From positions 1,922,001 to 1,986,000 of the forward strand of contig NZ_CP032683.1 in NCBI RefSeq assembly GCF_001304615.2: a stretch of DNA of 64,000 nt, written 5' to 3'. Shown here piece after piece: positions 58,270-63,293 of the stretch. Made by a program: the position numbers and the translations under genes. The notes below the pieces were generated by a model. The model saw only the letters and a program-made list of their open reading frames with translations. It searched no databases and had not been told where the DNA came from. This DNA comes from Methanosarcina flavescens. GTDB taxonomy: Archaea; Halobacteriota; Methanosarcinia; Methanosarcinales; Methanosarcinaceae. The first letter of the stretch is position 1. Each line of letters begins with the position of its first letter.

Positions 58270-59379
58270 TTGATAGTTCGAAAAAATATCTCTATTGACC
58301 AGTCCTACGTGGATAAATTAAAACCCTTTCTGGAGAAAAATAATGGAAATTTAAGTGCGGCAATAAGGGATGCTATCGAAACTGCTTCTCTCTCTCTGGC
58401 TGGAAGCACCGTTGAAAGTGGGGAAAAGGACTCAGGTAAGGTTTCACAGAATGCTGAATTCCGTAACAAGTTGATTGAGGACGATGAATTCCTTCTTGTT
58501 CATCATACGCTGCTTGAATGGCTTATAAAGAAGACTTCAGGGTTATTAATTGATGAATCCATTGTATATGAAATAATCAATCCTTATAAAATAAAACGGA
58601 TCTCTGACATTGTCAGTTACATAAACTCGCTCAACGAAAAAATGGGCTGGAAAATTAAGGTTGATGCAGAATATAGTCAGGATTCGGAACCGGAATCTGC
58701 AAGTCTTACTCTCTCTAACGGGAACCCCTACTTCAGGGAAATTATGGCTCACAACCTGGCTCTTTATCTGGCAAAACAAATGAAACTGGATGTTCAGGGT
58801 CTTTTCTGCAAATCAAATGTGACAAAGATTTATTTTAAAAGATTTGAGTTTCTTGATTATCAAAAAGTCCCTAAAGGACTTGATAAATATTTTGGGCAAA
58901 TGGAGATTGTCTTCCGGGAAATCCAGAAAAAACCGGAGTTCTGGAAAAACCTTATCAAAATCTATAAGCAGCAGAATTATCAGAGGCTCAGCATAAACAG
59001 AAAAACTTTCGAGGCTTTTGTCTCAGGGGATCTCCCATCCTTGGCTGAAATAACAAGGGATTTTGAACTGGATACAGGCAAGCCTCCTGAAGCTTTCACT
59101 CTTGCTGAGCATATTATGATTTTCAAAGAAGTTTACCTGACAGACAGCATAGGTAGTGATATTGAAATTTGTACGGTAAAAGGCAGAGAATATGTGAAAC
59201 TCATTCATGACTATTCTGATAAAAAAGTCTGTGAGATTATTACAAAGTATTATTCAAACATCCTCAAGTCTACTGGCTACCCTTTTACAGTTACTACCAA
59301 CCCCCATATGATCCTGTTCGTGTTCGGGAAAATGCCAGGTTCCACTTGTTTTTCTGAATTGAATACTCTGGAATCCTGA
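58270..59379 (+). CDS. Ribbon-helix-helix protein of unknown function
   Basis: 369 residues. The first 45 (VRKNISIDQSYVDKLKPFLE, then NLSAAIRDAIETA) form a ribbon-helix-helix DNA-binding motif like CopG/NikR. The remaining 320 residues are an unrecognised mixed alpha/beta region, with a middle part (RFEFLDYQKVPKGLDKYFG) and a C-terminal strand-helix pattern that may be a ligand-sensing domain. TTG start with GAGGGA about 8 nt upstream. Probably a transcription regulator; ligand and targets unknown. The next gene begins 67 bp later on the same strand. Confidence 0.65.
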   Translation: MIVRKNISIDQSYVDKLKPFLEKNNGNLSAAIRDAIETASLSLAGSTVESGEKDSGKVSQNAEFRNKLIEDDEFLLVHHTLLEWLIKKTSGLLIDESIVYEIINPYKIKRISDIVSYINSLNEKMGWKIKVDAEYSQDSEPESASLTLSNGNPYFREIMAHNLALYLAKQMKLDVQGLFCKSNVTKIYFKRFEFLDYQKVPKGLDKYFGQMEIVFREIQKKPEFWKNLIKIYKQQNYQRLSINRKTFEAFVSGDLPSLAEITRDFELDTGKPPEAFTLAEHIMIFKEVYLTDSIGSDIEICTVKGREYVKLIHDYSDKKVCEIITKYYSNILKSTGYPFTVTTNPHMILFVFGKMPGSTCFSELNTLES

Positions 59380-59446: not shown

Positions 59447-60013
59447 ATGAGTGATGTAATTTTGCTCTGGGACTGCCCTCTTCTCTTTGAGAAACTATTT
59501 GTGGAGTATGGGCTTGAATGCAGTCGTGCGCTCTCAACGTCCCTTGGTACTCCTTACTTTCCTGCCTGCAAGGTTCTGATCCTGCCGACAGGTTTTGCAA
59601 ATAAACAATATACAAAAACAGGCACAGGACTCGCACGCGGCAAGCAATCCCTCGAAAAATTCGTGAAAAAAGGGGGAACTCTTCTTGTTTTCAGTCCCCT
59701 GGTACCGGAATACGAATATGAATGGCTTCCTTTTTCTCTGAAGTATATAATGGAAGAGAACCCATGCACACCTCAGCCTGTAGGTAGTCACGATGCCCAG
59801 AAGCTAGTGGAAAACCTTGTCCTTCCTGCAGGATGCGACGGTTACTTTTCAGAGACCGATGCCGATGTCGTGCTCAAGGATGACAAGGGAAGGCCAATAA
59901 TGGTCGTAAAAGGGATTGGAGAGGGCTTGATTGTTGCAACTACTATACATGAATTCCCTGCAGCCGGATTCTTTAAGTGCAGGGTTGAATGTACAAAAAA
60001 AGTGAAAGCCTGA
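59447..60013 (+). CDS. Conserved protein of GATase-like fold, function unknown
   Basis: 188 residues. Pattern resembles a class I glutamine-amidotransferase-like fold: CPLLFEKLFVEYGLECSR, then PACKVLILPTGFAN, and GKQSLEKFVKKGGTLLVFSP, a typical strand-turn after the nucleophile region, but the Cys-His-Glu triad is not evident. No signal peptide. May be co-transcribed with the ribbon-helix-helix gene. Downstream DNA (60014-60120) is A-rich like several other 3-prime flanks here. Confidence 0.55.
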   Translation: MSDVILLWDCPLLFEKLFVEYGLECSRALSTSLGTPYFPACKVLILPTGFANKQYTKTGTGLARGKQSLEKFVKKGGTLLVFSPLVPEYEYEWLPFSLKYIMEENPCTPQPVGSHDAQKLVENLVLPAGCDGYFSETDADVVLKDDKGRPIMVVKGIGEGLIVATTIHEFPAAGFFKCRVECTKKVKA

Positions 60014-60176: not shown

Positions 60177-60477
60177 TCACTTTATTTTTTTTACATTTTT
60201 GTCCTTTTTATACTGATTCCCGAGTTTTTGTATTTCCTCAACTTCGTTCTCCAGTTTAATTACGAAGAATCCGAAGCAGGGCTTTATAAACTGGAATATA
60301 ATATCAGTTCTTGAGAAGCCAACAGGGGATGTCATACCAAGCAAGGTAATACCTTTACCTTATACCCACCAGGCACAAGGTATACGTCCTCAGAATGCTC
60401 TTTAATGTAATTTTCGCATTTTTTGGAGTTGCATTTTTCAGGAGAATTTCATATCTGTATTCTCTTAAGCACGCCAT
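60177..60477 (-). pseudogene. DUF1894 paralogue with two single-base deletions
   Basis: Read with two +1 corrections the 301 bp give 100 codons: start ATG 60475-60477 (AGGGTG ribosome site 6 nt upstream), stop TGA 60177-60179. The product aligns with the intact DUF1894 gene at 61596: YRYEILLKNATPK against MKYEILLQRISFK, YIKEHSEDVYLVPGGYK against YIEKNSDEVYYVSPGYK, KPCFGFFVIKLEN against KPCHGSFVLSIEN. Frame breaks lie in A-runs at about 60411-60414 and 60354-60356. Either a decaying gene or homopolymer sequencing errors. A minus-strand TATA-like TATATTATT lies upstream. Confidence 0.7.
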
Positions 60478-60772: not shown

Positions 60773-60908
60773 GATAAATGGGCTCTGTAGAAAACCTACT
60801 TAATCGTCATTAATAGACTTAAAGTTCTCAGCAAAATTGAATCAGGCAATTCAGTTTTAATTTGTTAAGATTGGTTATTTCAGAGGATTTCTACAGAGCC
60901 GATAAATG
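60773..60908. mobile_element. 120-bp MITE with 17-bp terminal inverted repeats and 8-bp target duplication
   Basis: The element is 60781-60900. Ends GGCTCTGTAGAAAACCT (60781-60797) and, reversed, GGCTCTGTAGAAATCCT (60884-60900) match at 16 of 17. GATAAATG flanks both sides (60773-60780 and 60901-60908), an exact 8-bp target site duplication. There is no ORF inside. The 8-bp duplication and GGCTCTGT-type ends are those of the IS6 family, so an IS6-like transposase probably moved it. Confidence 0.88.
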
Positions 60909-61140: not shown

Positions 61141-61599
61141 ATGACTGGCGCAAAAGTGCTTCTTATGATGGGATGTCCTGAGGTCCCAATTCAAACAAGT
61201 ATTGCCCTGTATCTTTCCCACAAGCTCAATAAGTCAGGATTTGATGTGACTGTTGCTGGGAATAATGCCGTAATCAAGCTTGTAAAAGTTTCGGATTTCG
61301 ATGGCTATTATGTAAAAAAGATGGTAAATCTCGACAAAACCCTGGAGGATATTATTGAGAAAAGATTGGATTTCGATATCTGCTTTGCCTTTATGCACAA
61401 CGACTCTGGATTGACTTTTGCAGCGACAATGAGCGCCATTTCTAAGGCCAGAATGTACTCTGTAATTTTTGGCAAGAATGCGGAGGCTCTCGAAAGAGCC
61501 ATTGAGTTCGACTGTGTGAAAATAGTCGCAAGCGATGTTCATAATCCTATCCGGCTCAAGAATAAGCTGGATAAGGTAATTGAGGAGATAGTTAAATGA
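61141..61599 (+). CDS. DUF1890 methanogen-specific protein
   Basis: 152 residues. A Rossmann-like protein (VLLMMGCPEVPIQTSIALYL, DVTVAGNNAVIKLVKVSD, CFAFMHNDSGLTFAATMSA) found in methanogens and thought to be tied to methanogenesis; no reaction known. ATG start with GAGATG ribosome site. Its TGA overlaps the next ATG (ATGA), so it is translationally coupled to the DUF1894 gene, its usual partner. Flanking DNA has the MITE 230 bp upstream. Confidence 0.85.
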   Translation: MTGAKVLLMMGCPEVPIQTSIALYLSHKLNKSGFDVTVAGNNAVIKLVKVSDFDGYYVKKMVNLDKTLEDIIEKRLDFDICFAFMHNDSGLTFAATMSAISKARMYSVIFGKNAEALERAIEFDCVKIVASDVHNPIRLKNKLDKVIEEIVK

Positions 61600-61970
61600 G
61601 CTGTATTGAGCAGATGAAGTATGAAATCCTTCTGCAAAGGATAAGCTTTAAGGAAGCTAGAGAGTACATTGAGAAAAACTCTGATGAGGTTTACTATGTA
61701 TCCCCTGGCTACAAAATCTTTAAAGATTACTACATAATAGGAGTGCCGCCCATTGCAGTGGGCGCAAAGGGCAATGCTCTGATTTTCCCCTATACAAAGC
61801 CCTGTCACGGAAGCTTCGTCCTGAGCATCGAAAATGAGGACAGTGTAAAGGAGATCAACAGGCTCAGGGAGACCGAGAAGGAGATGGGAGCACTCTCACC
61901 GAAGAAAGGCAAACCTCCTAAACGCCCCAGAACACCTGCAACCAGTTATCAGGATATGTGGAAAGAATGA
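61596..61970 (+). CDS. DUF1894 methanogen-specific protein
   Basis: 124 residues. Conserved core KYEILLQRISFKEAREYIE, VSPGYKIFKDYYIIGVPP and TKPCHGSFVLSIEN; a basic Pro/Lys tail (KKGKPPKRPRTPA) follows. Starts within the DUF1890 stop. Function unknown, confined to methanogens. A decayed paralogue lies on the opposite strand at 60177-60477, across the MITE. Confidence 0.85.
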   Translation: MSCIEQMKYEILLQRISFKEAREYIEKNSDEVYYVSPGYKIFKDYYIIGVPPIAVGAKGNALIFPYTKPCHGSFVLSIENEDSVKEINRLRETEKEMGALSPKKGKPPKRPRTPATSYQDMWKE

Positions 61971-62291: not shown

Positions 62292-63293
62292 TCATTCTAT
62301 TACCAGGTCTTTGACCCTGATTCCGCTTTCTACAATTTTCCCTACGATTTTTCCACCGGTAATTTCTACAGCTTTTGCAGCGTCTTTTTCCGGCAGGATG
62401 ATAAGGAAGCCCATGCCCATGTTGAAGGTTCTGTACATCTCAAGATCTTCTACCCCGCCTTCCTTCTGAAGGAATTTGAAGATCTCCTGAGGCTCCAGGG
62501 GATCGTAGAAATTAAACCCGAGTTTTGTCACTCTTCTCAGTTTCAAAAGTCCGCTGCCTGTTATGTGGGCAAGCCCGTGGACTTCGCATGCCTTGAGGAC
62601 GTCAAGAATCTCAATGTAAATTCTTGTTGGAGTCAGGAGCTCGTCTCCTATTGTTTTTGAACTGTCATACGGACATGGATCATGGTAAGAGTAGCCGGAT
62701 TCCTCAATGATCTTCCTTACCAGAGTGTATCCATTGCTGTGAATGCCTGAACTCGGGATACCTACAATCACATCACCTACGCTGACTTTTCCTCCCTCGA
62801 CAATCTGGTCTTTCCTGACAATTCCCAGGCATGTACCTGCAAGGTCGAAACCTTTAATTATTCCGGGAAGGGTTGCGGTTTCTCCTCCTACAATGGACAT
62901 TCTGGAGATTTCTGCGCCTTTTACCAGCCCTTCTCCTATCTGGGCGGCAAAGCCTTCTTCATGCTTTTCCACGGCAAGATAATCTACAAAAGCTACAGGT
63001 TCGGCTCCTATGGCCAGAAGGTCATTAACATTCATTGCGATACAGTCTATGCCTACTGTGTTCCAGCGCTGCATTTCGTTTGCAATAAGAACTTTTGAGC
63101 CTACTCCATCCGTTGTCAGGGCAAGGGCATATTCTCCGAAGTCAAGAAGCCCTGCATAATGCCCTATTCCTGTAAGGGGGGCTCCTATGCCTTTTCGAAC
63201 GTAGCTGAGCTTTTCAATAAGTGTTTTGACCGTTTTTTCTTCTTTGGCAATATCTACGCCTGAATCTGCGTATGTTAAGTGCTTTTCGCTCAT
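62292..63293 (-). CDS. purM: Phosphoribosylformylglycinamidine cyclo-ligase (AIR synthetase)
   Basis: 333 residues. Closes the imidazole ring in purine synthesis with ATP. The glycine-rich IGAPLTGIGHYAG, LTTDGVGSK, CIAMNVNDLLAIGAEP and HSNGYTLVRKI are PurM motifs; relation to ThiL (first gene of this window) is by fold. It starts 21 bp after the aspartate kinase stop on the same strand, an unusual pairing of purine and aspartate-family genes. Confidence 0.95.
   Translation of the reverse strand: MSEKHLTYADSGVDIAKEEKTVKTLIEKLSYVRKGIGAPLTGIGHYAGLLDFGEYALALTTDGVGSKVLIANEMQRWNTVGIDCIAMNVNDLLAIGAEPVAFVDYLAVEKHEEGFAAQIGEGLVKGAEISRMSIVGGETATLPGIIKGFDLAGTCLGIVRKDQIVEGGKVSVGDVIVGIPSSGIHSNGYTLVRKIIEESGYSYHDPCPYDSSKTIGDELLTPTRIYIEILDVLKACEVHGLAHITGSGLLKLRRVTKLGFNFYDPLEPQEIFKFLQKEGGVEDLEMYRTFNMGMGFLIILPEKDAAKAVEITGGKIVGKIVESGIRVKDLVIE

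Follow-up and report, generated by a model that had tools for sequence, protein, structure and literature searches.

The DUF1894 family (PF08979) is represented among solved proteins by MTH0776 (PDB 1Z9V), to which the intact DUF1894 protein of the locus studied here is related at a phmmer E-value of 5e-13, and DUF1890, whose gene precedes that of DUF1894 in some lineages, by its solved relative MTH0777 (PDB 1KJN). Searching the literature for DUF1894 and DUF1890 yielded nothing, and searching it for MTH776 and MTH777, also with zero-padded numbers, yielded only papers on protein structure prediction methods. Two arrangements of the gene offer the closest comparison. In ten other genera of the Methanosarcinaceae, DUF1894 is the sole and intact copy, in genomes without DUF1890 over the cut-off; purM is adjacent to it in 20 of 20 loci, up188 flanks its other side in 16 of these, and DUF1890 stands beside it in none. 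In the Methanotrichaceae, by contrast with those single-copy loci, DUF1894 can be found as the second gene of a DUF1890-DUF1894 operon. A third point of reference is the general process by which a xenologue displaces a native gene; a literature search for displacement together with Methanosarcina found nothing.

The window, i.e., the whole stretch of 64,000 nucleotides from Methanosarcina flavescens that was analysed (positions 1922001-1986000 within a single 3,283,688-base contig), holds both kinds of gene next to each other (Table 1). Its intact operon matches that of the Methanotrichaceae in partner order and tree position, the latter differing in that it is not the source of the second, broken gene. 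This broken gene falls into one clade (100/99) with the single copies of the other genera and shares with them a location between up188 and purM. We consider it quite probable that the locus contains an inactivated, and probably recently dead, vertically inherited native gene beside a DUF1890-DUF1894 operon of another lineage.

Table 1. Features of the DUF1894 locus, in coordinates of the window.
Feature	Position	Strand	Details
up188, conserved 188-aa neighbour, convergent with the broken gene	59447..60013	+	
Broken native DUF1894 gene	60177..60477	-	301 bases; ATG at 60477, stop at 60179-60177; tblastn and Pfam in three frames; intact 100-residue orthologues at the same locus
First in-frame part, about codons 1-19	60421..60477	-	stop reached in this frame after 40 codons
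Break 1, run of six A at codon 20	60419..60424	-	one base short compared with G061
Second part, about codons 21-40, in a different frame	60357..60418	-	
Break 2, run of three A at codon 41	60354..60356	-	four A in G061
Third part, about codons 42-100, in yet another frame and including the natural protein end	60177..60353	-	38.1 bits
MITE-like element, separating the broken gene from the operon	60781..60903		120 bases
DUF1890 gene, 152 aa, in one operon with the intact DUF1894	61141..61599	+	Pfam, 188.4 bits
Intact operon DUF1894 gene, 124 aa, of different ancestry	61596..61970	+	Pfam, 127.2 bits; trees
purM-like gene, the operon lying between it and the broken gene	62292..63293	-	

The gene next to the operon is one that we take to be purM-like. 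The MITE-like element has inverted ends (GGCTCTGTAGAAA...) with GATAAATGG repeated on both flanks; the genome carries 16 near-full copies of it at 93% or more, and G061 is without it at the same place. Beyond up188 lies up369 (58270-59379), which is solitary here and in G061; in many genomes of the genus, one or two extra up369 copies (identity approximately 26-40%) precede it in a row.

A sequence-only reading of this stretch had proposed a second full-length DUF1894 on the minus strand, hidden from any single frame. Our analysis confirms that this segment is a real, full DUF1894 gene spread over three frames. Searched by tblastn over the whole window, its pieces stand in order in three frames and reach a joined E-value of 3.6e-8 for DUF1894; three separate DUF1894 pieces are likewise recovered at this site when the whole genome is searched, and the 3' part of the gene exceeds the Pfam gathering score of 25 on its own, with 38.1 bits. 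Read across the three frames and aligned with the family (25 members), the gene retains the invariant C3, G38, K66, C68 and G70 together with others. It is thus like other DUF1894 members in its whole-length similarity, in C3, in the KPC cysteine and in its glycine positions, and unlike them in that its frame is interrupted twice; it also ends without the C-terminal tail seen in the operon type. No single open frame spans the DUF1894 domain in the broken gene, the first frame ending after 40 codons, and the gene is accordingly predicted to make no full protein, since translation in the frame of its start codon yields 40 residues at most.

In G061, the nearest relative, identity over the region amounts to 92%, and the orthologue is uninterrupted, encoding 100 residues in 303 bases with the stop included. 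Aligned with this orthologue, the broken gene shows exactly two one-base gaps and no others, which bears out the earlier description of two one-base deletions in a gene two bases short of a multiple of three (301 = 303 - 2); the other genes of the locus that were checked are open in both genomes, with equal or near-equal length. The positions and nature of the breaks were only half correct in that description. It had placed them at 60354-60356, where break 2 does lie, and at 60411-60414, whereas break 1 falls in the run of six at 60419-60424. Both had been described as contractions of A-runs, which is true of break 2; at break 1, a G is conserved in 31 of 31 intact orthologues, and it is the absence of this G that creates the run of six A. 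Judging from the alignment, the run would have arisen by loss of the G, or by its change and loss.

Together with the next base, break 1 reads A-AAA-AAT in frame. An identical heptamer occurs in fucA1 of S. solfataricus, described in PMC8211752 as the sole reported instance of -1 frameshifting in archaea, and its presence at break 1 raises the idea that the breaks are bypassed by programmed -1 frameshifting and the gene read through. An in-frame slippery heptamer was looked for at each shift, however, and while one is found at break 1, break 2 (GTA-AAG-GTA) has none, so that two shifts would be needed, one of them at an unsuited site. The arrangement is also absent from the orthologues, all 31 of which have open frames. 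We give almost no credence to a bypass of the breaks, and a full product obtained via double frameshifting appears very unlikely.

Within the genus, 25 of 30 genomes have an intact orthologue at the same place, for which the sequence-only reading had suggested looking in M. mazei, M. acetivorans and M. barkeri; G083, which we take to be M. acetivorans, is among them. In the sister genera g2 and g11, six of six genomes have it as well. Compared over 100 residues, these 31 orthologues share 28 invariant columns, the mark of a gene under selection; the copy of G015b has a frame that extends to 107 residues. In this regard, the draft genome G105 was scored as intact on the strength of its complete native copy, and the copies G089b, G099 and G015b, whose fragments carry no operon copy, are native and were counted as such. 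Two genomes were left unscored: G101, whose contig stops about 410 bases past up188, and G106, which is 60% complete and has no DUF1894 at all. We also observed that G105 carries two copies of native-type DUF1894 (L147:6259-8466), which face opposite ways, and that stretches of undetermined sequence interrupt one of them.

The breaks could also belong to the consensus and not to the organism. Homopolymer errors in a live gene had been suggested from the sequence, and an intact and working native gene, with the consensus wrong at one or both breaks, would agree with the A-run contraction at break 2, with the lack of decay in the substitutions of the broken gene and with the retention of the native gene in those 25 genomes. 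Against this, break 1 is a lost G and not a homopolymer step, and frame breaks are not abundant in the assembly: in the 400 kb around the locus, net frame-breaking indels affect 16 of 276 genes of our genome (G000) that are intact in G061, versus 20 of 272 in the reverse comparison, a count into which a tandem-repeat gene (G061 2323742) and a few short ORFs, possibly not genes, have also entered. An excess of assembly frame breaks was therefore not found over these 400 kb relative to G061. It is also improbable that two random errors would fall within a single gene of 303 bases. From eight one-base deletions in 273,594 bases outside the broken gene, a hand calculation gives approximately 0.009 expected errors per such gene, and the chance that any of the 276 genes carries two is approximately 1% if errors are independent. 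The suggestion of a live gene is thereby weakened: sequencing error is not favoured as the cause of the breaks, and we hold a working native gene to be unlikely.

Taking the native gene as dead, its age can be approached in two ways. Compared with G061, the dN/dS of the broken copy is 0.29, that of the operon DUF1894 (op94) 0.31, and those of op90, up188, up369 and purM 0.17, 0.21, 0.25 and 0.14, respectively; being no higher than that of the operon copy, the value for the broken gene gives no clear sign of relaxed selection. Noncoding sequence of this genome has 228 gaps over 37,776 aligned bases, or about 1.8 in every 300, and the two indels in the 301 bases of the broken gene, versus a neutral expectation of about 1.8, are consistent with neutral drift over a good part of the branch. 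The substitutions would thus suggest a shorter time since death than the gaps do, with per-branch substitution counts that vary with the outgroup (G021 or G047). Residues 57, 58 and 87 of the broken gene are found in none of the 31 orthologues, a weak sign given that G061 has two such residues (2 and 93).

With respect to ancestry, the broken gene has the orientation and the up188 neighbour of the single-copy loci, the operon intervening before purM. We designate the orthologues of the broken gene as PAR, the single copies of the other genera as NAT and the operon copies as OP. In a DUF1894 tree of 99 rows, which holds 15 of the 31 native copies found in g1, g2 and g11, along with 21 of the 39 operon copies, the window's own included, PAR and NAT form one side of a branch (100/99) and the OP copies group among DUF1890-linked copies of other lineages. 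Resident and newcomer copies are thus in different clades, with the newcomer akin to a distant lineage. A companion tree contains all 31 native and 39 operon copies; the broken gene, which is in neither of these two trees, takes its position from its orthologues. The trees of this analysis are based on 95 to 152 columns.

These trees bear directly on the origin first proposed for the gene pair, namely that the operon gene was duplicated inside the genus and the duplicate then lost. That both are DUF1894 genes no more than 1.5 kb apart is what such a duplication would predict. Nevertheless, a clade of PAR and OP is rejected (AU test, p 0.0064), PAR joins the single copies of the other genera (100/99), and the broken gene occupies the ancestral place near purM and up188. 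The loss stands, and a duplication of the operon gene within the genus can hardly be entertained. A possible alternative is an old duplication within the family followed by many losses of the operon, in line with the finding that PAR, OP and NAT forced into one clade are tolerated (p 0.195). Trees and gene order together nonetheless mark the broken gene as the older, vertically inherited native copy, and the intact operon copy as one of different ancestry.

DUF1890 exceeds the cut-off in 29 of 100 genomes of the family, all of them in g1, g2 and g11. In its tree, the operon copies form one clade (100/99) that joins some Methanotrichaceae (99/95), whereas the DUF1894 trees place those Methanotrichaceae inside the operon copies, a conflict under which the transfer may have run in either direction. 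We also noted two DUF1894 types in the Methanotrichaceae, one operon-like with a C-terminal tail and one short, on comparing the loci L056, L060, L063, L066 and L073 with L108 and G115.

These findings allow us to propose a sequence of events. The Methanosarcinaceae would have had one DUF1894 gene beside purM, inherited vertically, until a DUF1890-DUF1894 operon, nearest to that of the Methanotrichaceae, arrived between this native gene and purM in the common ancestor of the genus and the two sister genera. The distribution of the operon, its place and the trees are observed, and it is from these that we infer an arrival by transfer. Both copies persist in most genomes; in the present genome, the native copy has probably lost two single bases, a loss presumably tolerated with the operon copy probably covering enough of the shared role.

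The loss is not confined to this genome. Native DUF1894 is lost in three lineages, i.e., in this genome, in G007, where the gene is also broken (frameshift and split), and in G097, which has no native gene at its place, up188 being present and 4.6 kb beyond it having been examined in a draft that is 92% complete. Operon DUF1894 is found in 28 of the 29 genomes of the genus that have any DUF1894, the exception being G099, whose contig ends inside DUF1890; the asymmetry between operon and native copies is small in number. As in xenologue displacement, the native copy has disappeared more than once next to a copy of different origin; in contrast to it, most species here keep both copies, so that displacement is incomplete. 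A second DUF1890-DUF1894 operon was observed elsewhere in G047, G069, G081, G105 and G102 (L144, L145, L146, L148 and L153).

Regarding the protein itself, the family had been called methanogen-specific, in agreement with its presence in two of 14 genomes of a control set, both methanogens; in the phylum it is patchy (94 of 196 genomes). C3 and C68 are invariant in 25 aligned sequences and suggest a putative thiol or metal site. The AlphaFold model of the intact orthologue L033 has a mean pLDDT of 91.7. Foldseek found no match to it under E 0.001, and VIA-align gave a best Z of 4.2; assigning a function from the fold was dropped, the structure searches with this model being too weak.

By itself, the broken gene is an ordinary, tidy gene loss, of slight added interest in that the copy lost is the resident one. 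The dead copy is of the type that other genera of the family use as their only one, and the surviving copy differs in its history and comes with a partner gene. This narrows the requirements of the DUF1894 protein, its native version being seemingly dispensable in this lineage, G007 and G097. It also carries a warning for annotation, since a lone DUF1894 annotated here would pass, wrongly, for the family orthologue. More tentatively, and with a likelihood that we place somewhat short of even, a methanogen-wide protein may be in the course of displacement, separately in several Methanosarcina lineages, by an operon version of other ancestry that brings DUF1890 along as its partner. In that case, the two DUF1894 types would be exchangeable, and the newcomer together with DUF1890 would have made the resident dispensable, thus offering a natural test of the contribution of DUF1890.
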